From Thermoleophilum album (GTDB lineage: Bacteria; Actinomycetota; Thermoleophilia; Solirubrobacterales; Thermoleophilaceae), in assembly GCF_028867705.1 (NCBI RefSeq), contig NZ_CP066171.1:992001-1056000 (forward strand): DNA of 64,000 nt, in the 5' to 3' direction. How positions within the stretch are numbered: the first letter of the stretch is position 1; each line of letters opens with the position of its first letter. The position numbers were made by a program, and so were the translations under genes. The notes below the pieces were generated by a model. The model was given only the letters and a program-made list of their open reading frames with translations. It did no database searches and had not been told where the DNA came from. Shown here piece by piece: positions 18,391 to 49,469 of the stretch.

Positions 18391-19209
18391 CTAGGCGACC
18401 TCGCTGAAAAGCGGCTCGTGGTCGGCCAGCGCTCTGCGCAGCTTCTGCTTGAGCCGGCCGTGGATCTGGCAGACGCGGCTCTCGGAAACGCCCAACACCT
18501 CGCCGATCTCGCGCAGCGTCAGGCCCTTCGCGTAGAGCATCACCGCTACCTCCTGCTCGCGCTGCGAGAGCTCGCGGAACGCGTGGCGGAAGCGCGCCTT
18601 GGCCTCGCGAAGCGCAGCTGCCCGTTCGGGATCGCTGTCGCGCGCGTCCGCCTGGAGGGTGTCGATGCGCTCGATCTCGGTGTCGTCCTCGTCGCTCGCT
18701 ACGACCTGGTCGAGCGATGCCAGCTCGGCGTTTTCGAGCGCGGCGCGGCGCTTGCGCAGCTCGTCCTCGTCGATCCCGAGGGCGTCCGCCAGCTCGCGCG
18801 TTGTCGGCCGGCGCTGGTAGACGGCCATGAAGTGTTGGTCGACCTTGCGGATCTGGCGGTCGAGAGCGCGCAGCGAGCGCGGCGCCCAGTCCTGGCGGCG
18901 CAGCTCGTCGAGGACCGCGCCATGGATCCGCGTCCACGCGAACTGCTCGAGCGTGGCGCCCTTGTCCGGGTCGTAGCGCTCGATCGAGTTGATCAGCGCG
19001 ACAAGACCGCACGAGATCAGATCCTCGACCTCGCAGTTCACCGGCACCTCGCGGATCTTGCGGTAGACGATGTGCTTGACAAGCGGCGCGAACGTCAGCA
19101 CCAGGCGGTTGCGCAAATGGATCGACCCGGTTCGCTTGTACTCCCGCCACAGCGCCAAGACGTCGTGCGCCGCGGGCCTGCGTACATCCTTGATCTCCAG
19201 TTTGAGCAT
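18391..19209 (-). CDS. fliA: RNA polymerase sigma factor of the FliA/WhiG (sigma-28) class
   Basis: The 272-residue group 3 sigma factor has region 2 (LRNRLVLTFAPLVKHIVYRK, DLISCGLVALINSIERYDP, FAWTRIHGAVLDELRRQDW), region 3 (QRRPTTRELADALGIDEDEL) and region 4 (LSQREQEVAVMLYAKGLTL, IGEVLGVSESRVCQIHGRL). This is the expected reader of the twelve sigma-28-like sites in the window. ATG 19207-19209 is preceded by GGGAGGAAGGA. It is a single-gene unit and I see no sigma-28-like site in front of it, so it is probably made by the housekeeping polymerase. No flgM-like anti-sigma gene is adjacent. Confidence 0.95.
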   Translation of the reverse strand: MLKLEIKDVRRPAAHDVLALWREYKRTGSIHLRNRLVLTFAPLVKHIVYRKIREVPVNCEVEDLISCGLVALINSIERYDPDKGATLEQFAWTRIHGAVLDELRRQDWAPRSLRALDRQIRKVDQHFMAVYQRRPTTRELADALGIDEDELRKRRAALENAELASLDQVVASDEDDTEIERIDTLQADARDSDPERAAALREAKARFRHAFRELSQREQEVAVMLYAKGLTLREIGEVLGVSESRVCQIHGRLKQKLRRALADHEPLFSEVA

Positions 19210-19442: not shown

Positions 19443-19470
19443 GTCAAGTTCACGGCTCAGATGGCGAATG
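19443..19470 (+). promoter_or_regulatory. Sigma-28-like promoter of the TPR glycosyltransferase
   Basis: GTCAAGT (19443-19449), 13 bases, GGCGAATG (19463-19470), followed by CGGGGAC. The -10 covers an in-frame ATG at 19461, so that ATG lies upstream of the predicted transcript start. The next in-frame ATG, at 19479, sits 8 bases after the box and is the likely leaderless start. Confidence 0.65.
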
Positions 19471-19478
19471 CGGGGACG

Positions 19479-21941
19479 ATGGGACTCCGCCTGAAGCCCT
19501 TGTCCGACACTCCGCGGGCGGCGAGCCCTGCGAGCGCTGTCTCCGAGACGGCTGCTTTGGCGGCACGTGCGCGGCGGGCCTGGGCAGCTCTCGACCGGGC
19601 CGAGATCGACGCTTGTTTGCGCGCCTGCGACGAGCTCGCTGCTCCGCATGAGCCTTACCGCGGACGCAAGCTGCTGCTTGAGGCGGCGCTCGCGGAAACC
19701 TGCCGCGCGGACGCGCGCCGTCTCGAGTCGCTCTATATCCAGATGTGCCGCGTGGCCCTCGACGTGCTCGCGCGCGAGCCCCGTGAGCCCGTGCTGCTCA
19801 ACTACGCCGGGATCCCGTTCTACGAGCTGGGCGCGCGCGACACGGCCGCGGCGCTGTTTGCCGCTGCCGTACGTCTCGATCCCAACCACGCCGACGCGCA
19901 GCGCAACCTCGCTGCTGCCCGCCGCCGCCGTGGCCGCGTGCGAGTCTCGGCGGCAGCGCGAGCGACATGCGCTCGCCTTGACGGTCGCGCCCGCGAGCTA
20001 GCCGCAGCTGCACGGCCGGCCGAGGGGTTGCGCATCAGCCTCTGCATGATCGTCAAGGACGAAGAGGAGGTGCTGCCGCGGTGTTTGGCGGCGGTCCGAC
20101 CGGCGGTCGACGAGATCGTGGTGGTTGACACCGGCTCCTCCGATCGGTCGCGCGAGATCGCACGCGACTTCGGGGCGCGCGTGATCGACTTCCCCTGGAA
20201 CGGCTCCTTCGCCGACGCGCGCAACGTGTCGGTGGAGGCCGCGACAGGCGACTGGATCCTCTTTCTCGACGCCGACGAGGTGCTCGTCGAGGACGACGTG
20301 CCGAAACTGCGCGCTCTAGCCGGGCGCGTGTGGCGCGAGGCTTTCCACCTCGTCGAGACCAGCTACACCGGCGAGCTCGAACACGGCACCGCCGTGACCC
20401 ATGCGGCGCTCAGGATGTTCCGCAACCGCCCCACGTACCGCTTCCGCGGTCGGCTGCACGAGCAGTTCGCGTGGGCGTTGCCGAGCGGATTGCCGGAACG
20501 GATCGAGCAGACCGACGTACGAGTCGAGCACTTCGGGTACCTCGGCGTCGTGCGCGACACACGCGACAAGGCGCGCCGCAATATCGAGCTGTTGCAGCGC
20601 CAAGCCGAGGAGCGAGAGCCCGACTCCTTCTTCGAGTTCAACCTCGGCTCCGAGTACCTGGCTGTGGGGGACCTCACCGCCGCGGTGCGCCACCTCGAAC
20701 GTTCGCGCGAACTGCTCGAACGCGACGGTGGCGCGCGCGTGCTGCAGTTCACGCCGACCCTTTACACCCGTTTGGCGCTCGCCCACCGCCAGCTGCGCCA
20801 CTTCGATCGTGCAGTTGCGGTGATCGAGGAAGGCCTCGCGCTGTTTCCGGACTTCACCGACCTGGTGTTCGAGCGGGGCTGGGTGGAGCAGGAACGCGGT
20901 CGGCTCGACGAAGCGCAGCGGGCCTTCGAGCGCTGCCTCGAGATGGGCGAAGCGCCGGCGCGTTACACGAGCATCCGCGGCTGCGGCAGTCACCTGGCGC
21001 GTATGGGCCTGGCCGAGGTGTTCGCTCGCCGCGGGGACTTCGTGGCCGCCGAGCGCGAGGCGCTGAGAGCGATCGCAGGTGGTGTCGCCCACCCGTCCGC
21101 GGTGTTGTTCGCCGCGACGCTGATCACACGCAACGGCGGCGGTCCCGAGCGCGTGGCACGCGACGTTGAGGGTCAGCTGAACACGAAACCGACCGTCCTG
21201 TTCTTGACCGGTGTCGCGTTGTACGAGGCCGGCCACGTAGAAGCCGCGGAGGAGCGGTTCCGCCGTGTAGTCGAGCTCCAGCCGAGGAACGGGCGAGCGC
21301 GCGTTGCTTTGGGGGAGGCGCTCCTCAGCCTCAAGCGTTGGCAGGAAGCGGCCGCGGTGGCCGAGGCGGTGGCCGATGACGATCCCCACTCGCCCGCCGC
21401 TCGCCGTTGCGAGCTGTTTGCGCGGCTCGTCGCGCGCGACAGCCGCATCGCTGACCGTCTCGCCAGCGCGCGCGCGCTGCTGCCGGCGCACGAGCACGCG
21501 GCTTTCGAGGGCTGGGCGGCGCTCGCCGCCGGCCGCGAACCCGGTCTTTTGGCGGCCGAGTCAGCAGCGCTCGTCGCCCGCTGTCTCGATGCGCTCGCGC
21601 GGGTGCGCGAGATCGACGAGTTCGCGCTGCTCGTGCAGCTCCTCGAGCGCTGCGCGATCGACGCTCGCGCTCGCCACGAGATCCTCGCCGGCATATATCT
21701 TCGTCACGGTTTTCTGGACTCGGCTGCCGAAGAGTGGATCACGGCGTGCGAGCGCTTCGGGCCCGACGCCGAGGCGCTTCTCGGTCTCGCCCAGGTCGCC
21801 TACGCCAAAGGTCTGCTGCAAGACGCGCTGGTCTTCGCCGAGGAGGCCCGCCAACGAGCGCCGACCGACCCGCGCTGCGTGCGCATGCACGAGCGGCTAC
21901 TTGCTGCCGATTCGGCGTCCAGCTCGCACGCGACGACCTAA
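19479..21941 (+). CDS. Family 2 glycosyltransferase with flanking TPR repeats, probable flagellin glycosylation
   Basis: The 820-residue protein has an N-terminal TPR-like helical region (about 20-170, FYELGARDTAAALFAAAVRL). A GT-A domain follows (about 184-330): RISLCMIVKDEEEVLPRCL, EIVVVDTGSSDRSREIA, FADARNVSVEAATGDWILFL and the metal site LDADEV, then RGRLHEQF. A long C-terminal TPR array (about 385-815) makes up the rest. The layout resembles protein-modifying SunS/TPR glycosyltransferases. Its sigma-28-like promoter and place next to flaG-fliD suggest it modifies flagellin; the acceptor is inferred. ATG 19479 is preferred to ATG 19461 for the promoter reason given above. Confidence 0.85.
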   Translation: MGLRLKPLSDTPRAASPASAVSETAALAARARRAWAALDRAEIDACLRACDELAAPHEPYRGRKLLLEAALAETCRADARRLESLYIQMCRVALDVLAREPREPVLLNYAGIPFYELGARDTAAALFAAAVRLDPNHADAQRNLAAARRRRGRVRVSAAARATCARLDGRARELAAAARPAEGLRISLCMIVKDEEEVLPRCLAAVRPAVDEIVVVDTGSSDRSREIARDFGARVIDFPWNGSFADARNVSVEAATGDWILFLDADEVLVEDDVPKLRALAGRVWREAFHLVETSYTGELEHGTAVTHAALRMFRNRPTYRFRGRLHEQFAWALPSGLPERIEQTDVRVEHFGYLGVVRDTRDKARRNIELLQRQAEEREPDSFFEFNLGSEYLAVGDLTAAVRHLERSRELLERDGGARVLQFTPTLYTRLALAHRQLRHFDRAVAVIEEGLALFPDFTDLVFERGWVEQERGRLDEAQRAFERCLEMGEAPARYTSIRGCGSHLARMGLAEVFARRGDFVAAEREALRAIAGGVAHPSAVLFAATLITRNGGGPERVARDVEGQLNTKPTVLFLTGVALYEAGHVEAAEERFRRVVELQPRNGRARVALGEALLSLKRWQEAAAVAEAVADDDPHSPAARRCELFARLVARDSRIADRLASARALLPAHEHAAFEGWAALAAGREPGLLAAESAALVARCLDALARVREIDEFALLVQLLERCAIDARARHEILAGIYLRHGFLDSAAEEWITACERFGPDAEALLGLAQVAYAKGLLQDALVFAEEARQRAPTDPRCVRMHERLLAADSASSSHATT

Positions 21942-23906: not shown

Positions 23907-24326
23907 GTGAAGACGCCCTACGCGAGTGCCCGCTCCTACCGCGAGCAGGAAGTTCTGACTGCACCTCCCGAGCGGCTGGTGGTGCTCCTGTTCGAGGGGG
24001 CGGTTCGCTTCCTCGAGCGCGCGCGCCTGGCGCTCGAATCGCGCGATACGGCCGCCTTTCACCACAACCTCAACCGCGCCGACGCGATCCTCGACGAACT
24101 GCTCGCGACACTCGACCTGAGCCAGGGCGAAATCGCCTCGCGCCTGCAAGGCATCTACGTCTTCTGCAAGCGCCAGCTCGCCGACGCGCGGTTGGCGCGC
24201 GACAGCGGCGCGGTGGCGCGCGTCGCGCGGTGGCTGCGCGAGCTCGGCGAAGCCTTCGATGCGGCGAGCCGGACGGTGCGAAGCGAGACGGGGGCACACG
24301 CGCCCGGTGGCGCTGTGCGCGCATGA
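23907..24326 (+). CDS. fliS: Flagellin export chaperone FliS
   Basis: FliS binds the flagellin C-terminus in the cytosol and prevents early polymerisation. The 139-residue protein starts VKTPYASARSYREQEVLTA and continues PPERLVVLLFEGAVRFLERA, with NLNRADAILDELLATLDLS and the helical GEIASRLQGIYVFCKRQLADA. GTG 23907 is set by homology to the YxxYR-type start and by the promoter just upstream. Its stop overlaps the next gene (ATGA). Confidence 0.95.
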   Translation: MKTPYASARSYREQEVLTAPPERLVVLLFEGAVRFLERARLALESRDTAAFHHNLNRADAILDELLATLDLSQGEIASRLQGIYVFCKRQLADARLARDSGAVARVARWLRELGEAFDAASRTVRSETGAHAPGGAVRA

Positions 24327-27486: not shown

Positions 27487-28623
27487 ATGGTGGAAGCCGA
27501 CGAGAGCATCGCAATCGCCACCGCTGAGCCCGGTGATGGTCTGGCCGGTGATCCCACCGCTGCCGGCCCACCTCCCCCCGTGCCGGAACCGTCCGCGCGC
27601 GACCGCGGCAGCTCGCGCGGCGCAGCACCCGGCTTGCGCGGGATCCGCAAGGCAGCGGCGTTCTTGGCGAGCCTCGGTCCCGAGCGCGCGGCCCAGATTA
27701 TGAGCCACCTGAGCGACGACGAGGTCGAGCAGCTCACGCTCGAGATCAGCCGCCTGCGGTCGTTGCCGCCCGAGATCGTCGAGGAGATCTGGCGGGAAGT
27801 CGAGGAAAACGCGGCAGCAGAACGTTTCGTTGTCGAGGGGGGCGTCGACTTCGCGCGGGCGGTGCTCGAGCGAACGCTCGGTGCGGAACGAGCGCAAGAG
27901 GTCCTGAACCGTGTTATGGGCGCGGGCCAGCGCCCCCAGTTCGAGTTTTTGCGGCGCACGCCCCCCGAGCAGATCGCCGCTTTTCTGCAGAGCGAACGTC
28001 CCCAGACGATCGCGGTTGTGCTGGCGAACGTCGACACCGCTCTCGCCGCGAAGGTGCTGGCCAAGCTCGACGCGCAACTGCAGGTCGAGGTCGCGCGGCG
28101 TATCGCCGAGATGAGCGACACAAGCCCCGAGGTCGTGCGCGAGATCGAAAGCGTGATGCGGATGAAACTCTCGGGAGTGATCGCCAGCAGCTACGAGGAG
28201 TCGGGCGGGGTGAAGTCGCTCGCCGAGATCCTCAACAACGCGGATCGCACCACCGAGCGCAACGTGCTCGAGAAGCTTGGTGAGGACGATCCCGATCTCG
28301 CTCAGCAAGTGCGCGATCTGCTGTTCGTGTTCGAAGACATCGTCAAGCTCGACGATCGCAGCATCCAGCTCGTGCTCAAAGAGGTCGACCAGTCCGATCT
28401 GCCGCTCGCGCTGCGCGGGGCCAGCGACGACGTCAAGGAGAAGATCATGAGCAACCTCTCGCAGCGTGCGCAGGAGCTGCTGCGCGAGGAGATGGAGCTG
28501 CAGCCGCCGCAGCGCCGCTCCGCTGTCGAAGAGGCACAAGCGCGCATCGTGGCCGTGGTGCGCAAGCTCGAGGAAGCAGGCGTGATCACGATCGGTCGGG
28601 GCGAGGATGACCTCGTCGCCTGA
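27487..28623 (+). CDS. fliG: Flagellar motor switch protein FliG
   Basis: FliG couples the MS ring and C-ring to the stator. The 378-residue protein has a non-conserved Pro-rich N-terminal stretch of about 50 residues before LRGIRKAAAFLASLGPERAA. The middle domain follows (RTPPEQIAAFLQSERPQTIA, which includes an EHPQ-like motif written ERPQ). The torque helix region reads FVFEDIVKLDDRSIQLVLKE, with the charged residues that face MotA. ATG 27487 lacks a clear ribosome site, and a start further in (before residue 45) is possible. It overlaps fliH by 17 bases. Confidence 0.94.
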   Translation: MVEADESIAIATAEPGDGLAGDPTAAGPPPPVPEPSARDRGSSRGAAPGLRGIRKAAAFLASLGPERAAQIMSHLSDDEVEQLTLEISRLRSLPPEIVEEIWREVEENAAAERFVVEGGVDFARAVLERTLGAERAQEVLNRVMGAGQRPQFEFLRRTPPEQIAAFLQSERPQTIAVVLANVDTALAAKVLAKLDAQLQVEVARRIAEMSDTSPEVVREIESVMRMKLSGVIASSYEESGGVKSLAEILNNADRTTERNVLEKLGEDDPDLAQQVRDLLFVFEDIVKLDDRSIQLVLKEVDQSDLPLALRGASDDVKEKIMSNLSQRAQELLREEMELQPPQRRSAVEEAQARIVAVVRKLEEAGVITIGRGEDDLVA

Positions 28624-29215
28624 ACCGTTCGCGTTCGACCGTTTGAGCTCGGCCGCGACGCGTGCCGCCGTCGACCGCGGCGAGCGTGAACGGGTGCTCG
28701 TCGAACAGGCGCGCGCGGATGGTTACGCCGAGGGATACGCGGCTGGCCGCGCCGACGCGGAGGCCGAGCTGCGGGCACGGATCGAACAGGCGGCTGCAGC
28801 GCTTGCTGCCGCCACCGCAGAACTAGCTCGTGCCCGCGACCGCGCCGCTCAGGCGCTCGAGCCGCGCGCCGTCGAGCTGGCGCTGCGTATCGCCGAGAAG
28901 GTCGTAGCTGGGACTGTCACAGCGGAGCCGCGACGGATTCTCGACGTGGTGGCAGGAGCGCTTCAACGCCTGGCCGAGCGGTCGCGAGTGACGGTCGTGA
29001 TCCACCCCGACGACCTTGCCACGGTTCGTGCTCAGGCCGACGCCATCGCCGCCCGCATCGGTGGCATCGAGCAGCTCGAGGTGCAGGCCGACAGTGGGGT
29101 CGGGCGGGGCGGGGCGGTCGTGCGCACGAGCGACGGCGAGATCGACGCCACCGTCGAGAGCAAGCTCGAACGCGTGCGCGAGCTGCTCGCCGGTGACGAC
29201 CGGCAGGGTCGGTGA
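28607..29215 (+). CDS. fliH: Flagellar export ATPase regulator FliH
   Basis: FliH holds the FliI ATPase at the export gate. The 202-residue protein has the glycine-spaced helix DGYAEGYAAGRADAEAEL characteristic of FliH, a central coiled coil, and the C-terminal peripheral-stalk-like domain with VELALRIAEKVVAGTV, VTVVIHPDDLATVRAQ and GGAVVRTSDGEIDATVESKL. The start lies inside the fliG end, and its stop overlaps fliI by 4 bases. Confidence 0.92.
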   Translation: MTSSPEPFAFDRLSSAATRAAVDRGERERVLVEQARADGYAEGYAAGRADAEAELRARIEQAAAALAAATAELARARDRAAQALEPRAVELALRIAEKVVAGTVTAEPRRILDVVAGALQRLAERSRVTVVIHPDDLATVRAQADAIAARIGGIEQLEVQADSGVGRGGAVVRTSDGEIDATVESKLERVRELLAGDDRQGR

Positions 29216-30681
29216 GCGAATGCGGCGGACACCTGCTCGAGGCGGCGCTCGCGCTCGTCCGCGACGCCGATCTGTATCGCCGGCGCGGGCGGGTGAGCGA
29301 CCTGATCGGTCTGATCGTCGAGGTCACCGGGCTCGAGGCTTCGGTGGGCGAGGTCTGCAAGATCGACCGGGGCAGGCAGGAGGCGCCTGTTCCCGCCGAG
29401 GTGGTGGGCTTCCGCGACGGGCGAACGCTCCTGATGCCGCTCGGAAAGCTCGTCGGTGTTCGCCCGGGAACCCCGGTCGAGGCGACAGGAGCAGCGCTGC
29501 GCGTGCCGGTGGGGGAGGCACTCCTCGGCCGCGTGCTCGATGCGCTCGGACGGCCTATCGACGGCGGTCCGGCCGTCGAATGTGTCGCCCGCGTAGCGGC
29601 AGATCGGGAACCGCCCGCGGCGCTCGAACGGCGGCGTATCGACACGCGAGTGACGCTCGGGGTGCGGGCACTCGACGCCCTCGTCCCCTGCGGCCGTGGC
29701 CAACGCCTCGGCATCTTCGCTGGCTCGGGAGTGGGTAAGTCGTCGCTGCTCGGGATGATCGCGCGCGCCACCTCGGCCGACGTGAACGTGATCTGCCTGG
29801 TCGGCGAGCGTGGCCGCGAGGTGCGCGAGTTCATCGAGCGCGACCTCGCCGGCGCGCTCGCCCACAGTGTCGTCGTCGTGGCGACCTCGGACCAGCCGGC
29901 GCTGCTGCGCATCCGCGCCGCGCTCACCGCCACCGCGATCGCTGAATGGTTCCGCGATCGCGGGGCCGACGTGCTCTTGATGATGGACTCGGTGACACGG
30001 TTCGCAATGGCTCAGCGCGAGGTCGGGCTGGCGGTGGGCGAACCGCCGGCGACCCGTGGCTACACGCCGTCCGTGTTCGCACTGCTGCCGCGCCTCCTCG
30101 AGCGGTCGGGCACCAGCGCCGCCGGGACGATCACGGGTCTCTACACGGTGCTCGTCGAGGGCGACGATATGAACGAGCCGATCGCCGACACGGTGCGTTC
30201 GATCCTCGACGGTCACGTCGTGCTGTCGCGGTCGTTGGCCCACGCCGGCCACTATCCAGCGATCGACGTGCTTCAGAGCGTCTCCCGGCTCGAGTCGGAG
30301 CTGCTCGACGGCGAGGTGCTGGCGGCTGGGCGCACGCTGCGTTCGCTGCTAGCCGCGCTTCGCGACAAAGAGGACCTGATCGCGATTGGCGCCTACCAGA
30401 GCGGCAGCGACCGGCGCGTCGACGCCGCGCTCGCACTGCGCGAACGCATCGACGGCTTCCTGCGGCAGCGGCTCGACGAGCCATCGACCTTGAGCGACGC
30501 CGACGCCGGGGTGGTCGCGATAGCGCACGCTGCCGAGGAGTACCTCGCTGGCGCCGCGGACGGCGCCGAAGCAGGCGCCGCGGTGGCGGCAGCGGCGAGG
30601 GAACAGCCCGCAGCGGCACGCGACCTCACCGGTCAGAGTGCGATCCCGCCGCTCGAGATCGCGCCGTGGAACAGCCCGTGA
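29212..30681 (+). CDS. fliI: Flagellum-specific ATP synthase FliI
   Basis: FliI is the hexameric ATPase of the flagellar export apparatus. The 489-residue protein has the Walker A GIFAGSGVGKSSLL, the catalytic region CLVGERGREVREFIE, Walker B DVLLMMDSVTRFAMAQREVG and EPPATRGYTPSVFALLPRLLE. The C-terminal tail of about 45 Ala-rich residues is longer than usual. GTG 29212 overlaps fliH. The fliM promoter lies just after its stop. Confidence 0.97.
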   Translation: MSECGGHLLEAALALVRDADLYRRRGRVSDLIGLIVEVTGLEASVGEVCKIDRGRQEAPVPAEVVGFRDGRTLLMPLGKLVGVRPGTPVEATGAALRVPVGEALLGRVLDALGRPIDGGPAVECVARVAADREPPAALERRRIDTRVTLGVRALDALVPCGRGQRLGIFAGSGVGKSSLLGMIARATSADVNVICLVGERGREVREFIERDLAGALAHSVVVVATSDQPALLRIRAALTATAIAEWFRDRGADVLLMMDSVTRFAMAQREVGLAVGEPPATRGYTPSVFALLPRLLERSGTSAAGTITGLYTVLVEGDDMNEPIADTVRSILDGHVVLSRSLAHAGHYPAIDVLQSVSRLESELLDGEVLAAGRTLRSLLAALRDKEDLIAIGAYQSGSDRRVDAALALRERIDGFLRQRLDEPSTLSDADAGVVAIAHAAEEYLAGAADGAEAGAAVAAAAREQPAAARDLTGQSAIPPLEIAPWNSP

Positions 30682-30705
30682 CGGCCGAGGCTGGCGAGAC
30701 CGGCG

Positions 30706-30733
30706 CTGAACCCGCGCCCGCAGCTGGCGATTA
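30706..30733 (+). promoter_or_regulatory. Sigma-28-like promoter upstream of fliM
   Basis: CTGAACC (30706-30712), 13 bases, GGCGATTA (30726-30733), then CCGGGGG. The -35 is a weaker match; the -10 is good. The fliM start (GTG 30740 or ATG 30743) is 6-9 bases downstream, again implying a leaderless or near-leaderless mRNA. Confidence 0.68.
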
Positions 30734-30742
30734 CCGGGGGTG

Positions 30743-31666
30743 ATGGCGACCTCCGCCCAAGCGCCAGCTAGCGACAGTGCCGCCGTCGAGGTACAGGCTG
30801 TCGACTTTCGTCGCCCGACGAAGTTCACGCGCGAGCACGTGCGGCGGCTCGAGCACGCGCACGAGACCGTCTGCCGCTCGCTCGCGACGCGCATGTCGAC
30901 GGAGCTGCGCACAACCGTCGAAGTGGCGCTGAGCGAGGTCGACCAGCTGCCCTACAGCGAGCTCGTGCTCGAGTCGCAGGCGCCGGCGCTCGTGACCACG
31001 ATCGATGTCGAGCCGGTCGCGACACAGGTCGCGCTGCTGTTCGACCTGCGTCTAGCGCTCTTCGTCGTCGAACGGCTCCTCGGCGGGACCGGGGACGCGG
31101 TGCGCGAGGCGGCACCGTCCGACCCCACCGATCTCGAGCTCGCCGTCGCGCGCCGGGCGATCGCCGGGGTCGTCGACAGCCTTTCCACGACCTGGCTCGA
31201 CCTTGCCGGCGTGCGCTTGCGCCCGGGTGCGACGACAACCACCCGCCTCGCGCCCCAGATCGTCTCCCCCGGCGAGGTAACGCTCGCCCTGCCGCTCGAG
31301 GTCAGCGCCGGGCAGCTGCGCGGGCGAATAGTGCTGGCGCTGCCGTACAGCTCGATGTTCCCGCTGCTCGAGAGGCTCGAGTACCACGCTCGCGACGGTC
31401 TTCCCGCCGATCCCGCGACCGCAGCCGCGCTCGAGGCGTCTCTGCGCCGTGTCGACGTCGAGGTGCGGGTCGAGGTCGGCGCGCTCGAGCTGACGCTCGG
31501 CGAAGTGCTGGCGCTCTCACCCGGCGACATCCTCCCGCTGCGGAGGAAGGTCGAGGACGGGGTGGTCGTCTGCGTCGGCGACGTTCCCACTTACGTAGGG
31601 CGTCCCGGTCGCGACGGCGGGCGCAAGGCGGTGCAGGTGACCGGGCGATGGGCGGCGCCAAGGTGA
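30743..31666 (+). CDS. fliM: Flagellar motor switch protein FliM lacking the CheY-binding peptide
   Basis: FliM forms most of the C-ring. Residues from about 20 onward match the family: AVDFRRPTKFTREHVRRLEH, then the CheC-like middle domain (a GG loop in ERLLGGTGDAVRE) and the C-terminal SpoA domain (VEVRVEVGALELTLGEVLAL). The usual N-terminal CheY-P docking peptide (LSQxEIDALL) is absent. The upstream frame cannot hold it, because a TGA lies at 30707-30709. ATG 30743 and GTG 30740 are both possible starts. The length is 307 residues. Confidence 0.92.
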   Translation: MATSAQAPASDSAAVEVQAVDFRRPTKFTREHVRRLEHAHETVCRSLATRMSTELRTTVEVALSEVDQLPYSELVLESQAPALVTTIDVEPVATQVALLFDLRLALFVVERLLGGTGDAVREAAPSDPTDLELAVARRAIAGVVDSLSTTWLDLAGVRLRPGATTTTRLAPQIVSPGEVTLALPLEVSAGQLRGRIVLALPYSSMFPLLERLEYHARDGLPADPATAAALEASLRRVDVEVRVEVGALELTLGEVLALSPGDILPLRRKVEDGVVVCVGDVPTYVGRPGRDGGRKAVQVTGRWAAPR

Positions 31667-31977
31667 GCGAGCGGAGCACGACAGCGCACGACGGTGGCGA
31701 GCGCCTCGACCCTGTGGCCCTGCACGACGTGCCGGTGCGTTTCGCTGTCGAGCTCGGCAGGACACGGATGCCGGCCGCCGACGCGGCGGGTCTCGAACCC
31801 GGGGCGGTGATCGATCTGGACGATCCCGTCGAGGCGCCGGTGACGGCGTACGTCGAGGGCCGGCTTGTGGCGCGTGGCGCGCTCGTGGTGGTGGAGGGCG
31901 AGTGGGCGCTGCGCATCGATGCGATCGTCGAACGGCCGTCCAACGCCGCTGAGCCCAGCAGCGGTGGAGCCGACTAA
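31648..31977 (+). CDS. FliN-like SpoA-domain switch protein (first copy)
   Basis: The 109-residue protein is a single SpoA domain (about residues 25-95): VALHDVPVRFAVELGRTRMP, GLEPGAVIDLDDPVEAPVTA and ARGALVVVEGEWALRI. It pairs with FliM in the C-ring. It lacks any CheY-binding or CheC-like part, so it is not FliY. ATG 31648 overlaps fliM by 19 bases; GTG 31663, with a 4-base overlap, is an equally plausible start. A second, more typical FliN is encoded at 38946. Confidence 0.85.
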   Translation: MGGAKVSERSTTAHDGGERLDPVALHDVPVRFAVELGRTRMPAADAAGLEPGAVIDLDDPVEAPVTAYVEGRLVARGALVVVEGEWALRIDAIVERPSNAAEPSSGGAD

Positions 31978-36778: not shown

Positions 36779-37624
36779 ATGAAGGCGACTACGGCGATCG
36801 GCATTGCCCTTGCGTGCATTTTGATCGCGCTCGGCGCGATTATGGAGGGCACCCAGCTCACAGCTCTAATCAACATTCCCGCCTCGCTCTTTGTCTTTGG
36901 CGGCACGTTCGGTGCGGTGATGGCCGGCACGAGCTTCGAGCGGGTCAAGGCGATCCCGCGCCTCTATCAGATCGCGATCAAGGGAGAAGAGCCAGATCCG
37001 CTCGAGCGCATCGAACTGATGGCTCGCCTAGCCGAGATCGCCCGCCGCGAAGGTCTCCTGGCGCTCGAGGCTGAGCTCGACCAGATCCGGGATCGTTTCA
37101 CTCGCAAGGGCATCCAGATGGTCGTCGACGGCACCGATCCCGAGGTGTTGCGAGAGGTTCTCGAGATTGAGATCGAGGCGCTCGAACAGAGGCACGGTGA
37201 CGCCCGGCGCGTCTTCGAAAAGGCAGCGGGATTTGCGCCGACGATGGGAATTCTCGGCACCGTTCTCGGACTCGTGCACGTCCTGCAGAACCTCGACGAT
37301 CCTGGCAGTTTGGGTCCGGCGATCTCGAGCGCTTTCATCGCCACGCTGTTTGGCGTCGGGTCGGCCAACGTCGTGTTCTTCCCGGTGGCGAACCGCCTGA
37401 AAGAGCTCACCGACGCCGAGGTACGCCTGCGGATCATGACCCTCGACGCCGTCCTAGCTGTCCTCGAAGGCGAGAACCCGCGTGTGCTGCGCGAAAAGCT
37501 CGTGAGTTTCCTGCCACCGGAGCTCGCCGACCAAGCCGCGGCGGGAGCCCAAAGTTCGGCTGGGCGCGCTTCCGCTGCCGGCGCTCCTGCTGGAGCTCCC
37601 GCGGCCGAGCCAGTCGCTGCCTGA
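36779..37624 (+). CDS. motA: Flagellar stator protein MotA
   Basis: MotA is the ion-channel stator subunit that pushes on FliG. Four transmembrane segments are visible (about 5-22, 33-52, 150-170 and 182-203), including FVFGGTFGAVMAG and ARRVFEKAAGFAPTMGILGT, the second with the channel Pro-containing helix. The cytosolic loop between the second and third segments carries the charged residues that contact FliG. The C-terminus has a 30-residue Ala/Pro tail. The start at ATG 36779 is preceded by GGGAGGGG. It is followed by motB after 3 bases. Confidence 0.95.
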   Translation: MKATTAIGIALACILIALGAIMEGTQLTALINIPASLFVFGGTFGAVMAGTSFERVKAIPRLYQIAIKGEEPDPLERIELMARLAEIARREGLLALEAELDQIRDRFTRKGIQMVVDGTDPEVLREVLEIEIEALEQRHGDARRVFEKAAGFAPTMGILGTVLGLVHVLQNLDDPGSLGPAISSAFIATLFGVGSANVVFFPVANRLKELTDAEVRLRIMTLDAVLAVLEGENPRVLREKLVSFLPPELADQAAAGAQSSAGRASAAGAPAGAPAAEPVAA

Positions 37625-37627
37625 GCT

Positions 37628-38476
37628 ATGGCCGGGCATCGCGGATCGCGGCGGCGCCGTGCTGGGCACGGCGAACACGAAAACGAGGAGCGCTGGCTCC
37701 TCACCTACTCGGACATGATCACTTTGTTGATGGCGCTGTTCATCGTGATGTTCGCGATATCGAACGTCAACAAGTCGAAACTCGAAGCGCTGCGGCAATC
37801 GCTGGAGGATGCGTTTTCAGGTGCGATCCTGCCCGGCGGGCACACGGTACGCCAGGTAGCGCCACCTTCACGTACGCCGGCACCGCCGCAACCAGGGCAA
37901 GCGCAATCGAACCTCGTCGACAACGAGCAGAACCGCGACGAGATCGAGTTTCGCGAGATCAAGCGGCGACTCGACCGCTACGTCCGCATACGCCACCTCG
38001 AGGGACAGATCCGCACGCTGATCGACCAGCGCGGCTTGGTGATCCGTTTGCTCACCGATCGCATCCTTTTCGACTCCGGATCGGCAGACCTGAAACCGGG
38101 AGCCCGCCCGATCCTCAGCGAAGTCGCAAGCATGTTGAAACTGCGCGCAGGTTTGCCGGTGTCCGTCGAAGGTCACACCGATCCCGTGCCGATTAGTGGT
38201 CGCTACCCGAGCAACTGGGAACTGTCGACGGCGCGGGCAGCTCGAGTCGTACGCGCGCTGATCGCCTACGGCGTTCCTGCTCAGAGCATGAGCGCGACGG
38301 GCTACGCGTGGCTGCACCCGATCGCGTCGAATGCCACTGCGAGCGGGCGGGCTCGCAACCGGCGTGTGGAGGTTGTTCTGCTGCGCAGTGGCCGCGGCAC
38401 GGCATCTTCCGGGGTCGGACCTCTTACATCTTCGCTGCGCGTGTCGATCACTTCGGGTGCAGTGCCGTTGCGCTAG
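37628..38476 (+). CDS. motB: Flagellar stator protein MotB
   Basis: MotB anchors the stator to peptidoglycan. The single transmembrane segment LTYSDMITLLMALFIVMFAI (about residues 27-46) includes the ion-binding Asp. A Pro/Gln-rich plug/linker region follows, and then the OmpA-like domain (about 140-260) with DRILFDSGSADLKPGARP, VSVEGHTDPVPISGRYPSNW and ELSTARAARVVRALI. Whether protons or sodium drive it cannot be read from the sequence. The N-terminal HEHENEERW stretch is typical. Confidence 0.95.
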   Translation: MAGHRGSRRRRAGHGEHENEERWLLTYSDMITLLMALFIVMFAISNVNKSKLEALRQSLEDAFSGAILPGGHTVRQVAPPSRTPAPPQPGQAQSNLVDNEQNRDEIEFREIKRRLDRYVRIRHLEGQIRTLIDQRGLVIRLLTDRILFDSGSADLKPGARPILSEVASMLKLRAGLPVSVEGHTDPVPISGRYPSNWELSTARAARVVRALIAYGVPAQSMSATGYAWLHPIASNATASGRARNRRVEVVLLRSGRGTASSGVGPLTSSLRVSITSGAVPLR

Positions 38477-38945: not shown

Positions 38946-39314
38946 GTGGCCGACGAGATCCAGTACGAACAGCTTGCTGACGACGGTGCCGCGCAGTCGA
39001 GCTCCGACCTCGAGCGTCTTGGCGACGTCGAGGTCGAGGTGAGCGTCGAGATCGGGCGGCGTCGATTGACGATCGCCGAGACGCTCGAGCTCGCCCCCGG
39101 GTCGCTGATCGCGCTCGGGCGTCCGGCTGGCGACCCCGTCGACCTGCTCGTCAACGGGCGTCGCATCGGCCGCGGCGAGGTGGTAGTGATCGACGACGAG
39201 TTCGGGATCCGGGTCACCGAGGTCGTCTCACCACGCCGTCGTGCGGAGAGCTCGCGTGCAGCCGCTGGCGGCGAGCCGGCAAGCACCGGCGCCGACGGCG
39301 AGCCCGTCGCCTGA
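38946..39314 (+). CDS. fliN: Flagellar motor switch protein FliN (second copy, canonical)
   Basis: The 122-residue SpoA protein has LERLGDVEVEVSVEIGRRRL, TIAETLELAPGSLIALGRPA and GRRIGRGEVVVIDDEFGIRV, the full FliN signature, with a short disordered tail. GTG 38946 follows GAGGAG by 9 bases. FliN builds the lower C-ring and holds FliH. With the copy at 31648 there are two FliN-type proteins in addition to FliM. The fliO promoter starts 4 bases after its stop. Confidence 0.94.
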   Translation: MADEIQYEQLADDGAAQSSSDLERLGDVEVEVSVEIGRRRLTIAETLELAPGSLIALGRPAGDPVDLLVNGRRIGRGEVVVIDDEFGIRVTEVVSPRRRAESSRAAAGGEPASTGADGEPVA

Positions 39315-42720: not shown

Positions 42721-44849
42721 CCGCCAGCGGACCGAAGCCAGCGAGCGGCCTCCTCGAGCGTATCGGGCGTAACACCGATCTCGCTGCGGCCGTAGTGGTC
42801 GCGGTGATCGTGGTGATGATGGTCGTGCCGCTGCCGCCGGCGCTGCTCGACTTCCTCATCACCCTCAACATCAGCGCGGGACTCGCGATCCTTGTCGCCA
42901 CCCTCTATCTGCGGCGCCCGCTCGAGTTCGCGGCCTTCCCGGCGCTGCTCTTGCTGACCACGCTGTTCCGGCTGGCAATCAACGTGTCGGTTACGCGCCA
43001 GATCTTGCTCCACGCCGACGCCGGACATGTCGTGCGGTCGTTCGGCGAGTTCGTTGTCGGCGGAAACGTGGTCGTCGGCCTCGTCGTTTTCCTGATCCTC
43101 GTCGTGATCCAGTTCGTGGTCGTGACGAACGGCGCCGGGCGCGTCGCCGAGGTAGCGGCGCGCTTCACGCTCGACGCCATGCCGGGCAAGCAGATGGCGA
43201 TCGACGCCGACCTCAACGCGGGTCTCATCACCGACGAGGAGGCGAAGGCGCGCCGCGCCGAGATCGCCCGCGAAGCCGACTTCTACGGAGCGATGGACGG
43301 CGCTTCGAAGTTCGTGAAGGGCGACGCGATCGCTGCCGTTCTGATCGTTCTGATCAACCTCATCGGCGGCATGATCGTCGGGGTGGTCCAGCACGGTCTA
43401 CCGTTCTCCGAAGCGGCGCACCGCTTCTCGCTGCTGACGGTCGGCGACGGTCTTGCCGCGCAGATACCGGCGCTGTTGATCTCGGTCGCGACCGGCGTGA
43501 TCGTCACCCGCGCCGCCTCCGATCGCGACCTCGGTCGCGATGTGCTGTCCCAGCTCGGCCGCCAGCGGCGGGCACCGCTCGTTGCTGGCGGGCTGGTAGC
43601 GGCGATGGCACTCGTTCCCGGTCTGCCGAAGTTGCCGTTTCTGGTGATCGGGGGGCTCTTGATCGCAGCGGGACGCGCGCTCGCTCGGGATGGCGACGAG
43701 GCCGAAAGCAGCGCGACCGGCCCCACCCCCGAGCAGCTCCCCGAACAGCAGAGCCCGCAGGACGCAGCCCTGGCCGCGCTCGAGCTCGACCCGCTCGAGC
43801 TGGCCGTGGGCTTCGCGCTCGTGCCGCTCGTCGACGCGCGTGCAGGAGGCACCCTCCTCGCCCGCATCGGCGTCATCCGCCGACAGATCGCAAGCGAACT
43901 CGGCATCGTCATCCCGCCGGTGCGCGTGCGCGACGACGCCACCCTGGAGTCGCACGAGTACGCAGTGCGGGTGCGCGGCCAGGAGGTGGCGCGCGGACGA
44001 GTCGTGCCCGGCCACTACCTAGCCATCGACACCGGCGAGGCGGCCGGCGAGCTGGGCGGGATGGAGACGCGCGAGCCGGCGTTCGGCCTGCCGGCACGCT
44101 GGATCGACGATTCGGCGCGCGCACGGGCAGAGGCGCTGGGCTACACGGTCGTCGACGCCGAGTCGGTGCTCGCGACCCACCTCACCGAGGTGGTGCGCCA
44201 GCACGCTGCCGACCTCTTGACCCGCCAGGACGTGCGGCTGCTGCTCGACCAGCTGAAGGAGCGCAACGCCGCGGTCGTCGAAGAGCTGGTCCCCGACGTC
44301 CTCTCGGTCGGAGAGGTGCAGCGCGTGTTGCAGGCGCTTTTGCGCGAGGGGGTGTCGATCCGCGACCTCGGGACGATCCTCGAAGCGATCGGCGATCGCG
44401 CGCGTGTCACGCGCGACGTCGCCCAGCTCGCCGAACACGCCCGGCAGGCGCTCGGTCGCACGATCGTCGCCCCGCACCTCGACGGCGATGTGCTGCGCGC
44501 CTGGACCGTCGACCCGGCGCTCGAGCAGGAGCTCGCAGAGGCGATCGTGCAGACCGCCGACGGCGAGCTTCTGGCGCTCGCACCCGAGCGTGCGCGCACC
44601 CTCGCGGAGCGGCTGCGCGCCGTTGCCAGCGAGCGCGAGGGGGAGGGCCAAGTCGTGCTCTGCTCGTCGCGCGTGCGCCGCCATCTGCGCCGGGTCGCGG
44701 AAGCAGTCGCACCGCGGCTGGCCGTGATCGCGTTCTCCGAGCTTCCGAGCAACGTCAAGGTCGAGAACGTGGGCGTTATCGGATTGCCGGAAGCAGCCGA
44801 TGAACACAACAGCGGAGTGGAGCCCACAGGAGCCGCCCATGCTCGCTGA
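42717..44849 (+). CDS. flhA: Flagellar export gate protein FlhA
   Basis: FlhA is the nonameric export-gate component that docks chaperones. The 710-residue protein has about eight N-terminal transmembrane segments, the FHIPEP block TTLFRLAINVSVTRQILL and the conserved cytosolic loop FTLDAMPGKQMAIDADLNAG with ITDEEAKARRAEIAREADFY. The C-terminal cytosolic domain (from about residue 370) has ATLESHEYAVRVRGQEVARG and LPSNVKVENVGVIGL. It overlaps the flhF-like gene. Confidence 0.97.
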   Translation: MTASGPKPASGLLERIGRNTDLAAAVVVAVIVVMMVVPLPPALLDFLITLNISAGLAILVATLYLRRPLEFAAFPALLLLTTLFRLAINVSVTRQILLHADAGHVVRSFGEFVVGGNVVVGLVVFLILVVIQFVVVTNGAGRVAEVAARFTLDAMPGKQMAIDADLNAGLITDEEAKARRAEIAREADFYGAMDGASKFVKGDAIAAVLIVLINLIGGMIVGVVQHGLPFSEAAHRFSLLTVGDGLAAQIPALLISVATGVIVTRAASDRDLGRDVLSQLGRQRRAPLVAGGLVAAMALVPGLPKLPFLVIGGLLIAAGRALARDGDEAESSATGPTPEQLPEQQSPQDAALAALELDPLELAVGFALVPLVDARAGGTLLARIGVIRRQIASELGIVIPPVRVRDDATLESHEYAVRVRGQEVARGRVVPGHYLAIDTGEAAGELGGMETREPAFGLPARWIDDSARARAEALGYTVVDAESVLATHLTEVVRQHAADLLTRQDVRLLLDQLKERNAAVVEELVPDVLSVGEVQRVLQALLREGVSIRDLGTILEAIGDRARVTRDVAQLAEHARQALGRTIVAPHLDGDVLRAWTVDPALEQELAEAIVQTADGELLALAPERARTLAERLRAVASEREGEGQVVLCSSRVRRHLRRVAEAVAPRLAVIAFSELPSNVKVENVGVIGLPEAADEHNSGVEPTGAAHAR

Positions 44850-46209
44850 CAAGATCATCGCTGCCCTCGCCTCGCGCCGCGAAGAGCACGGCACGGCGGC
44901 GGCCACAGGACCAAAGCAGCCAGCTGCGCAACCACCGAGCGACAGCGAGTCGCGAAAGAAGCGGCGGAACCGGGTCGAGCGCGTAGCTCGCCCCGACGGT
45001 GTCGTCGTCTTCCGCGCCCGCAGTCTCGAGGAGATTCTGCCCGCCGTGCGTGAGGAGCTCGGTCCGGACGCGCTGATCCTCCGCCAACGCGAGGGGCTCA
45101 CCGGTGGCTTCGCCGGCTTTTTCCAGCGCCGCTGCGTCGAGGTGGAAGCGCGCGCGGCAGCAGCTGCGCTCGACTGCTACGACGGCGACGAGGCGGCGCT
45201 GCCTTGGGATCTCTCGGCGGCCAACGCGGACGAGGAAAAGCGCTTCTCGAACCTCAACGAAACGCAGGCAAGCGACGAGGGGAAAGACCTTCGCGCAGTG
45301 CGCGAGGGGCCGGTCGCGGTGCGCGACTTCCGCGAACTGCTAGAGCGGCTCGCGCCCGTGGACCAGCGCACCGACACTAGCCGCAACGGCGGCAACGGCA
45401 GTGTCGATGCGCACGCCGCTGCCGACGGAGCCAGCAGCGCCGAGGGGACGGATTCCCTGGCTCTGAACGGCGAGCGCGCAACACCGGCCGACGTTGCGTC
45501 CGCGGGCGGCACTCGATCGCCCGACAGGCAGCGTGAGCCTGCCAACGCCGCTGCACTGCGTGCAGCGCTGCGCAGCGTTGGCTTCAGTGCAGAGTTCGCC
45601 GAACGCCTAGTCGCGGACGCTACCCGGCATCTAGTGCCGTTCGGCACGTCGCGCGGGCTGAAGCGCTACGCCCGGCAGGCGCTCGCCGCGCGGATCGCGA
45701 TCTCGCCGCCGCCCGCGACCGCTGCGCCGCTCTTTGCGATCGCCGGGCCGCCCGCCGGTGGCCGCACCACTCTCGCCCGCGCTCTTGCCTCCGCCTACGC
45801 GGCTGCCGGCCGCGAAGTCGTCGTAGCCAGCGGCGGCGAGACCGAGGAGCTGGCGGGCACGAGCGAGTCCGCGATCGTCATCGCCGAGCTGCCGGCGCTC
45901 TCCGGCGACGGCCCCGAGCTGCCCGCGCTCCTCGCTGACCTGCCGCACGAACGGCCGGTCGCGCTCGTGGTATGCCTGCCCGCCACCTACTCGGCAGCGG
46001 CGGCGGCTCGGCTGCTCGAGCGTTGCCGGCGGGCGGGCGACGCGGTGGTGGCGGTGACCCAACTCGATCTCGAACCGGCGCCAGCCGGCGTCGTCGAGGC
46101 GCTAGCAGCGGTACGCCTGCCCGTCTTGTACGTGGCGGGACGGGGGATCGGACGTTTCGGCCTCGAGCCCGCGAACGCCTGGGAGCTGGCGAGTCGTGTC
46201 GTTAGGTGA
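44839..46209 (+). CDS. flhF: FlhF-like SRP-GTPase homologue with degenerate GTP site
   Basis: The 456-residue protein keeps the FlhF N-terminal region (VVFRARSLEEILPAVREELG, PDALILRQREGLTGGFAGFF), a long variable linker, and a C-terminal NG-like domain (from about 230). The P-loop reads AGPPAGGRTTLAR, with Arg309 where SRP GTPases have the essential Lys. The G3 DTAGR motif is not found (VIAELPALSGDGPE instead), and the G4 TKxD is VTQLD. GTP hydrolysis is therefore doubtful. ATG 44839, preceded by ACAGGAG, is preferred to 44800. No flhG follows. Confidence 0.8.
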   Translation: MLADKIIAALASRREEHGTAAATGPKQPAAQPPSDSESRKKRRNRVERVARPDGVVVFRARSLEEILPAVREELGPDALILRQREGLTGGFAGFFQRRCVEVEARAAAAALDCYDGDEAALPWDLSAANADEEKRFSNLNETQASDEGKDLRAVREGPVAVRDFRELLERLAPVDQRTDTSRNGGNGSVDAHAAADGASSAEGTDSLALNGERATPADVASAGGTRSPDRQREPANAAALRAALRSVGFSAEFAERLVADATRHLVPFGTSRGLKRYARQALAARIAISPPPATAAPLFAIAGPPAGGRTTLARALASAYAAAGREVVVASGGETEELAGTSESAIVIAELPALSGDGPELPALLADLPHERPVALVVCLPATYSAAAAARLLERCRRAGDAVVAVTQLDLEPAPAGVVEALAAVRLPVLYVAGRGIGRFGLEPANAWELASRVVR

Positions 46210-46218
46210 GGCGAGACG

Positions 46219-46842
46219 GTGGCCGTTCCGCAGCGCAAGCAGAGAGCCTCGCTAGCGGTGGGACGCGACCGCCTCCCCGTCGTGGTGGAGGGCGAGGCCC
46301 AGCCGGGCTTGTGGGTACTGGCCGTTCTCGTGCCCTGCAAGCTGGCAGCCGACCAGGGACTTGCCGGACGCCTCGAGTTCCCGACCGCCCGCGGTCTCTG
46401 CGCGCTCGACGGTGTCGTTCAGCCCGACGGCTGCAGCGACGGGCGGTTGCTGTTCTGGGCGCGGACGACGCGTGTCGAGCAGCGGCGGGAACTGGCGCGG
46501 ATCGACGTGATGTTGCCGGTCGTGCTGAGCTGGCGGGTCGGAACTTCGGCGCAGCGAACCTATCGCACCACGACGCTCGACCTAAGCGGGGGCGGGGCTC
46601 TGGTAGCAGCACCGCCCGGTCTCAAGCCCGACCAGGAGGTCGGTATCTACTTGACGCTCGGCGACGGTGGGCCCGACATGCTGTTGCGGGCGCGGGTGGT
46701 GCGCGTCGTCGATCGCTCGCGCGTCGCGCTGTGTTTCGAGGCGATCAGCGAGAGCCAGCGCGAGCGGATCATCCGCTTCGTTCTGCGCGTGCAACGGGAA
46801 CAGATCCGCAGACGGCGCGAGGTGCTGAGCGGTGGCGGCTGA
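46219..46842 (+). CDS. PilZ-domain protein, YcgR-like (c-di-GMP flagellar brake type)
   Basis: The 207-residue protein has an N-terminal beta-rich YcgR-N-like domain (about 1-90) and a C-terminal PilZ domain with the two c-di-GMP signatures: RRELARIDVMLPV (RxxxR) and TLDLSGGGALV (DxSxxG). YcgR-type proteins bind c-di-GMP and slow or bias the motor at FliG/MotA or FliM. It starts at GTG 46219, 9 bases after the flhF-like gene, and its end overlaps a small membrane protein gene. In the absence of che genes it is the only visible signal input to the motor. Confidence 0.85.
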   Translation: MAVPQRKQRASLAVGRDRLPVVVEGEAQPGLWVLAVLVPCKLAADQGLAGRLEFPTARGLCALDGVVQPDGCSDGRLLFWARTTRVEQRRELARIDVMLPVVLSWRVGTSAQRTYRTTTLDLSGGGALVAAPPGLKPDQEVGIYLTLGDGGPDMLLRARVVRVVDRSRVALCFEAISESQRERIIRFVLRVQREQIRRRREVLSGGG

Positions 46843-47139: not shown

Positions 47140-47367
47140 ATGACAGCGCACGACAACCTCGGCCCGCTCAACCCGGTCGGACCTCGGCACGACGTGGATC
47201 CGCTAGCCCGCGTCGAGCGCCTGCGCGCGCTCGACCGCCAGCAGCGGCAGCGCGAAAAGAAAGCGGGCGAGCGGCGCGCGCGGCGGCGGCCGGCTGCCCC
47301 CCGCAGCCCGCAGGCGGGCACAGGGCCCGAGACCGACGGCGAAGGCACGCTCGACGTGCGGGCATGA
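47140..47367 (+). CDS. Small basic hypothetical protein
   Basis: This 75-residue, Arg/Lys-rich, probably unstructured protein starts at ATG 47140 after GCGAGGAAGACAGC. Central RVERLRALDRQQRQREKKAG is a charged helix. No family is recognised. It lies between the membrane protein and the glycosyltransferase (ATGA overlap), so it is in the same transcript. Small size and biased composition make the call moderate. Confidence 0.5.
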   Translation: MTAHDNLGPLNPVGPRHDVDPLARVERLRALDRQQRQREKKAGERRARRRPAAPRSPQAGTGPETDGEGTLDVRA

Positions 47368-48668: not shown

Positions 48669-49469
48669 ATGTCCCTTCGCATCCAAAACAACGTCGAGGC
48701 GTTCGTCGCCCATCGTTACCTGTCGAACACGAGCTCGAAGCTCTCCAAGTCGATGGAGAAGCTGTCTTCGGGCTTCCGCATCAACCGCGCCGCCGACGAC
48801 GCCGCGGGCCTCTCGATCAGCGAGAAGATGCGCGGGCAGATCGGCGGTCTCGGGCAGGCCCAGCGCAATGCGCAGGATGCCGTTTCGATGGTGCAGACGG
48901 CGGAGGGCTCGCTGTCGCAGGTGCACGCGATGCTGCAGCGCGTCCGCGAGCTCGCCGTCCAGTACCAGAACGGCACGCTTTCTGCGGCCAACCGCACAGC
49001 GATCCAGTCGGAGGTCAACCAGCTCGCCGCTGAGATCGAGCGCATCGGCCAGAGCGCGGAGTTCAACGGCATCAAGGTGTTGAGCAGCGCCGGTGTCGTC
49101 ACCTTCCACGTCGGACCGAACGACGGTCAGACGATCACCGTATCGACGATCAGCCTCGGCAGCGTGCTCGGCACCGCAGCGTTCGCTCTCGGTGCGACCA
49201 CGGACCTGTCCGAGATCGACGCGGCGATCGACGCTGTCAGCGCCCAGCGGGCCACGCTGGGTGCGGTGCAGAACCGCCTCGAGTACACGCTCCAGCATCT
49301 CTCGACCTACCAGGAGAACCTGGTCGCAGCCGAGAGCCGCATCCGCGACGTCGACATGGCCCAGGAGGCCGTCACGCTCGCCAAGTACCAGGTCCTGCAG
49401 CAGGCCGGTGTGGCGATGCTGGCTCAGGCCAACCAGTCGGGCCAAGCAGTCCTGGCGCTCCTGCGCTGA
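48669..49469 (+). CDS. fliC2: Flagellin 2
   Basis: The 266-residue filament protein is almost identical in layout to flagellin 1: MSLRIQNNVEAFVAHRYLSN at the start, LQRVRELAVQYQNGTLSA in D1, and MAQEAVTLAKYQVLQQAGVA at the end, with a short middle. It has its own sigma-28-like promoter, a CsrA hairpin leader, an AAGGAGG ribosome site and strong terminators, so it is probably the major filament subunit. It stands alone in its transcription unit. Confidence 0.96.
   Translation: MSLRIQNNVEAFVAHRYLSNTSSKLSKSMEKLSSGFRINRAADDAAGLSISEKMRGQIGGLGQAQRNAQDAVSMVQTAEGSLSQVHAMLQRVRELAVQYQNGTLSAANRTAIQSEVNQLAAEIERIGQSAEFNGIKVLSSAGVVTFHVGPNDGQTITVSTISLGSVLGTAAFALGATTDLSEIDAAIDAVSAQRATLGAVQNRLEYTLQHLSTYQENLVAAESRIRDVDMAQEAVTLAKYQVLQQAGVAMLAQANQSGQAVLALLR

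Follow-up and report, generated by a model that had tools for sequence, protein, structure and literature searches.

Loss of CheY-related switch parts in the flagellar locus of Thermoleophilum album, a bacterium lacking chemotaxis genes

Introduction

Among described systems, the classical FliM/FliN/FliY switch of Escherichia coli, Bacillus and Thermotoga is the nearest counterpart of the flagellar motor considered here. The FliM middle and C-terminal domains, a FliN with a SpoA domain, FliG, MotA and MotB are all shared with the motor encoded in the window, which is the whole 64,000-nucleotide stretch of DNA analysed. The window switch differs from the classical one in having neither an LSQxEIDALL-type peptide in FliM nor a CheC-like domain in FliY. 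FlhG is a second partner of the FliM and FliY N-termini. Motors of Salmonella without CheY-P rotate counterclockwise (CCW) only (PMC6445934).

Flagellated bacteria without a chemosensory system have also been described. According to the accessible part of one survey (PMC10746217, mBio 2023), 14 of 69 flagellated actinobacteria, mostly Actinomycetia, have no chemosensory system, flagellated bacteria of this kind are very rare, the control of direction in such cells is unclear, and Aquifex aeolicus was the first case reported. The genome of Thermoleophilum album, a hot-spring-related bacterium with a complete flagellar gene set, resembles those actinobacteria and A. aeolicus, as described there, in combining complete flagellar genes with the absence of che genes. 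In the accessible part of that survey FliM appears in gene lists only, and the FliM peptide, the FliY domain and the switch are not treated. Compared with the cases described in that part, the loss considered here reaches the C ring, recurs within one class, with six or more occurrences, and is accompanied by a named candidate input, a PilZ protein. Flagella without che genes are therefore already published. A literature search that had most subscription journals outside its scope retrieved no account of a coordinated stripping of the switch, in which the peptide of FliM and the domain of FliY disappear along with the che genes.

Our preferred reading of the window, to which we assign a probability of about 0.6 from the sequences compared, is a complete flagellum that probably works but whose switch CheY no longer reaches; the input most likely to remain is c-di-GMP, by way of the PilZ protein.

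Materials and Methods

Flagellar genes were assigned by Pfam, homology or position, and part of the set was scanned individually. The CheY-binding peptide was represented by a position matrix derived from 62 genuine examples, with a minimum seed score of 14.2. The class sample comprised 299 genomes, of which 56 had FliM and 44 of those CheW; all FliM N-termini were read and scored. The phylum sample comprised 397 genomes of at least 90% completeness. FliM was found in 62 of them, 49 of which were new, and CheW in 40 of the 49. Genomes and loci with chemotaxis genes are called che-positive and those without che-negative, and individual genomes are given by our own labels (G and number). The FliM tree was built without the N-terminus. 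The fliI-fliM junction was compared between G242, G195 and G035 and the window and G215.

Results

The FliM reading frame and the CheY-binding peptide

The features that bear on the switch are collected in Table 1. Upstream, the fliM frame is bounded by an in-frame TGA (30707-30709), and the open frame 30710-31666 reads TRARSWRLPGVMATSAQAPASDSAAVEVQAVDFRRPTK up to FTREH. The start is most likely ATG 30743, which leaves 27 residues before FTREH; a preliminary description of this DNA had also placed the start shortly upstream of that region, although its count of about 20 residues was too low. Both FliM domains are present, the middle domain (PF02154) with a Pfam E value of 5.9e-32, which exceeds the curated cut-off, and the C-terminal SpoA domain (PF01052, FliMN_C) with E=1.7e-20. 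Solved FliM structures match the protein, the top match being 4fq0 (E=1.1e-19).

Table 1. Features of the window, with positions counted from its first letter.
Feature	Positions	Strand	Basis and remarks
Sigma factor, probably FliA/WhiG group (inference)	18394..19209	-	Pfam sigma-70 regions 2, 3, 4
fliG, all three domains	27487..28623	+	Pfam; C-terminal torque helix region looks intact
fliI	29212..30681	+	Homologue of relatives' FliI; Pfam for the G195 and G215 copies
fliI-fliM junction, 61 bases	30682..30742	.	cheW-cheB-cheR-cheA-cheC-cheD here in che-positive relatives
fliM without N-terminal CheY-binding peptide	30743..31666	+	Pfam FliM and FliMN_C, structure matches; alternative start GTG 30740
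FliN1, 109 aa, SpoA domain only	31648..31977	+	Pfam FliMN_C only; aligned with G242 FliY; FliY N-domain survey
motA	36779..37624	+	Pfam MotA_ExbB
motB, proton-channel aspartate (YSDMITLLMALF) kept	37628..38476	+	Pfam MotB_plug and OmpA
FliN2, 122 aa, SpoA domain only	38946..39314	+	Located between fliL and fliO, where cheY is absent
flhF-like gene	44800..46209	+	Homology to relatives' FlhF; no Pfam match at 1e-4
PilZ-domain protein, adjoins flhF	46219..46842	+	Pfam PilZ E=2.2e-15
fliC, flagellin	48669..49469	+	Pfam Flagellin_N and Flagellin_C

The CheY-binding peptide was not found near fliM, where a six-frame matrix scan of 30400-30900 reached a maximum of 2.1. When the genus was left out of the matrix, the N-terminus of the window FliM scored -1.8 (shuffle p 0.17), and the same matrix gave 8.5 to 33.8 on 44 peptide-bearing che-positive loci of the class. 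The species has a second assembly, Bacterium HR41/HRbin41, whose FliM is 96% identical, with the same start and an N-terminus that differs by one residue. A missed start or a frameshift that would conceal the peptide is ruled out by the in-frame TGA, the six-frame scan and this second assembly. Thus, the preliminary description was correct in reading the FliM as lacking the LSQxEIDALL motif and in citing the upstream TGA against a missed start.

Relocation of the peptide to FliN was also rejected. The matrix maximum in the two FliN regions of the window was 1.7, in agreement with the earlier reading that neither FliN-type protein bears the motif. When FliN N-termini were scanned for the motif, it was present only in the FliY of one che-positive family, apart from one chance-like match in another class. 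The sole match in the window above the seed minimum, LSQGEIASRLQGI at 24117-24155 (score 18.7), lies within FliS and was taken as a chance resemblance.

Chemotaxis genes in the genome

The genome consists of one contig of 2,112,804 bases and is 95.66% complete. Domain searches of the whole genome identified one FliM, no CheW domain and no MCP signalling domain. Since CheA contains a CheW domain, CheA is absent as well. Seven receiver domains were found genome-wide, all in proteins that, as read from their sequences, have OmpR- or NarL-type DNA-binding output, and no stand-alone receiver of the CheY type is among the seven. CheA and CheY are missing from the genome. An incomplete assembly is unlikely to be the cause, with the genome in one contig and a second member of the genus in agreement for MCP and CheW. 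The preliminary description had reported no che or mcp genes in the window, had proposed a genome search for cheA, cheY and mcp, and had named a second FliM or a che operon elsewhere as evidence against its view. The search found none of these genes, so its statement holds genome-wide, and neither a second FliM nor a che operon occurs in the genome.

Peptide and chemotaxis genes across the class

In the class, the peptide is present at 44 of 45 che-positive loci and absent from 10 of 13 che-negative loci (Fisher p=5.7e-8, with counts that ignore kinship). The three che-negative loci with a peptide belong to G199 (88% complete, with che-positive genus mates), G126 (88% complete, weak peptide) and G003 (weak peptide). 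MCP is absent from all 21 CheW-less genomes and present in che-positive controls; thus, two protein families agree on the che-negative calls. The FliM tree of the class requires no fewer than six losses of the peptide, every one in a CheW-less clade, and at least ten changes of the che state. The independent pairs that differ in the peptide all do so in the expected direction (4 of 4), a number below significance. Within genus g103 the che-positive G195 and G285 read LSNEEVAALVEAARQG and LSNDEVAALVEAARQG, respectively, and the che-negative G215 reads MSDAISEPDTTQEEQ...APKRRARRVREIDF. Two further members of the window's family, G648 and G653, likewise have a peptide-free N-terminus.

The only che-positive locus of the class without the peptide, G169, is from the same family as the window. 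Its che cluster (L080, G169:C32 24-34 kb) lies near the flagellins and encodes CheB, CheA, CheW, two MCPs, CheR with TPR, CheW and CheY; its FliM has no peptide and its FliN no CheC-like domain. The cluster was possibly acquired later. A peptide-free FliM in a genome that has a che cluster with CheY means that the link between peptide and che genes is not absolute. A separate observation concerns the che-less genome G212 (L081, L082; G212:C25 ~95 kb and 120 kb), which carries a pair of FliM genes separated by 25 kb. Both are peptide-free, each is followed by a short FliN, and they occupy different places in the FliM tree.

Peptide-free FliM outside the class

In the other classes of the phylum, the peptide was absent from all nine che-negative genomes and from 22 of 40 che-positive ones, being present in the other 18. 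The peptide-free che-positive rows (L124, L126, L128, L129, L131-L133, L135-L141, L143-L148, L153, L154) form one large group on the FliM tree, and the adjacent FliN of these 22 genomes has no peptide where it could be read. Thus, absence of the peptide alone proves no loss of chemotaxis, and because it is not diagnostic, the main argument rests on the absence of che genes from the whole genome. This also qualifies the earlier suggestion that the motor may not switch or may take its signal another way, which is partly supported in that peptide loss tracks che loss within the class.

The FliM of these later actinobacterial classes resembles the window FliM in having no N-terminal peptide. It differs in that CheW is present and the loss is common to the base of the group and not tied to loss of chemotaxis. 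The accessible part of PMC10746217 places chemosensory class F5 in the later classes (Acidimicrobiia, Nitriliruptoria, Actinomycetia) and F1 in basal ones, and we infer that the peptide-free che-positive group corresponds to the F5 classes. CheY may dock differently there; the 22 genomes indicate that peptide-independent docking probably exists in the phylum.

Gene order around fliM and the FliY domain

The che-positive G242 has the order cheW-cheB-cheR-cheA-cheC-cheD-fliM-fliY by Pfam, and in the che-positive G195 fliI is immediately 5' of cheW. The che-negative G215 has a fliI-fliM junction like that of the window, and its peptide is gone with the start and linker kept. G157 and G107 have cheY between fliM/fliY and fliO/fliP. 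FliN1 of the window occupies the place of the relatives' 289-aa FliY, which has a CheC-like domain before its SpoA domain; by Pfam, the CheC-like domain is absent from both FliN1 and FliN2. The preliminary description correctly reported FliNs only and no fliY in the window, but overlooked that FliN1 replaces a CheC-domain FliY of relatives. The FliY N-domain was found beside fliM at 41 of 45 che-positive loci and 2 of 13 che-negative loci, a count that loci at contig ends can escape. Three CheY-related parts are therefore gone together from the window: the che block, the peptide of FliM and the CheC-like domain of FliY.

One explanation of this joint absence is a single deletion that removed the che block and the 5' end of fliM, with the peptide lost by hitch-hiking and not through relaxed selection. 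The arrangement would allow this, as che genes are directly 5' of fliM in G195, G035 and G242, and fliI is the immediate neighbour of fliM in both the window and G215. We nevertheless regard it as doubtful for several reasons. First, G215 lost the peptide but kept the start and the linker. Secondly, fliM of G148 and G206 lies between fliN2 and fliO and is also peptide-free. Third, the loss also affects the FliY domain, which is encoded beyond the other end of fliM. The weakened peptides of G003 and G126 may represent intermediates without che genes in which the 5' end of fliM is intact.

The PilZ protein and c-di-GMP

The genome encodes one PilZ protein by domain search and 19 GGDEF domains within its 2.1 Mb. 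The PilZ protein carries the c-di-GMP motif RELAR...DLSGGG, in which both RxxxR and [DN]xSxxG are present, and the motif is conserved in the four relatives aligned. An flhF-pilZ pair is shared by the che-negative relatives G151, G115 and G148 and the che-positive G035 and G107; thus, it was retained through the loss of chemotaxis and was not newly gained. Residues 1-87 of the PilZ protein have no match to a Pfam family, and a fold search with a single-sequence model of the protein, which was poor (mean pLDDT 53), gave no significant match.

In the accessible part of PMC10140304, YcgR together with c-di-GMP lowers motor speed and gives the motor a CCW bias. The window protein shares the PilZ domain and the c-di-GMP motif with brakes of this type (E. 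coli YcgR, B. subtilis MotI/DgrA, Pseudomonas FlgZ), and as in them the PilZ domain is preceded by a region of about 85 residues and the gene is within a flagellar cluster. Unlike in these brakes, its N-terminal region is not recognised as a YcgR N-domain, and a role at the motor is that of a candidate only. The preliminary description had suggested that the motor may take its signal another way; it overlooked the PilZ gene within the window, which supplies a concrete candidate. Thermoleophilum also has RsiG, a c-di-GMP anti-sigma factor (PMC8325347). The only match in an RsiG motif scan of the window was within ribosomal protein S2.

Discussion

The window motor very probably operates without CheY input. 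The che block, the FliM docking peptide and the CheC-like domain of FliY, a domain of CheY-P phosphatase type, are gone, and the torque parts of stator and rotor are kept. In the mechanism we propose, with no CheY-P the C ring would remain in its default state, so that the motor would turn one way or reverse only spontaneously, and default rotation of this kind is probable from the gene content. The fast control that remains would, less surely, be c-di-GMP, which through PilZ would slow or stop the motor in the manner of YcgR and would perhaps be supplied by a subset of the 19 GGDEF domains. Such control of the motor is a tentative proposal at somewhat less than even odds. A wider possibility, which we hold to be unlikely, is that the family steers without chemotaxis, by a switchless, CheY-blind motor with c-di-GMP through one PilZ protein as its sole direct input. 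If so, cells would reach good places by changes of speed or stops and not by biased reversals.

We think it rather improbable that switching persists in the absence of CheY, either as a spontaneous event or under a different regulator acting on the FliM middle domain or FliN. The intact FliM middle and C-terminal domains and the 22 che-positive actinobacterial genomes without the peptide are consistent with such switching, but all seven response regulators have DNA-binding domains, and no candidate switch ligand was found.

A relic flagellum, non-functional or used for export or adhesion, with the switch decaying alongside, has a low probability. The lost switch parts, an arginine in the FlhF P-loop of both genus members and the absence of FliM from 24 of the 31 family members examined would fit this explanation. 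However, the flagellar set (fliC-D-E-F-G-H-I-J-K-L-M-N-O-P-Q-R, flhA-B, flgB-C-D-E, motA-B and the sigma factor) includes genes for export, rod, hook, cap, filament, stator and sigma factor whose frames in the window are unbroken, the torque residues (MotB aspartate, FliG C-terminus) are kept, and the gene order is unchanged in the second species of the genus. It is very improbable that the FliM peptide served FlhG and was lost with it. The window has flhF without flhG beside it, which would fit this explanation, but the che-positive, peptide-bearing G035, G157 and G107 likewise have no flhG beside flhF.

That the che block, the peptide of FliM and the FliY domain disappeared together more than once amounts to a natural experiment on which switch parts serve only CheY. 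The pattern also provides a sequence test for chemotactic control of the flagellum in the class, and it points to a single candidate motor input.

The P-loop lysine of FlhF is replaced by arginine in both species of the genus, with GPPAGGRT in the window and GPPGSGRT in G115, at a position where relatives have GK; the FlhF GTPase may be impaired in the genus. Beside the flagellar genes, 19461-21941 encodes a protein of 826 residues that combines many TPR repeats with a domain of glycosyltransferase family 2, and a second glycosyltransferase (47364-48548) lies ahead of flagellin. Glycosylation of flagellin by these glycosyltransferases is possible.
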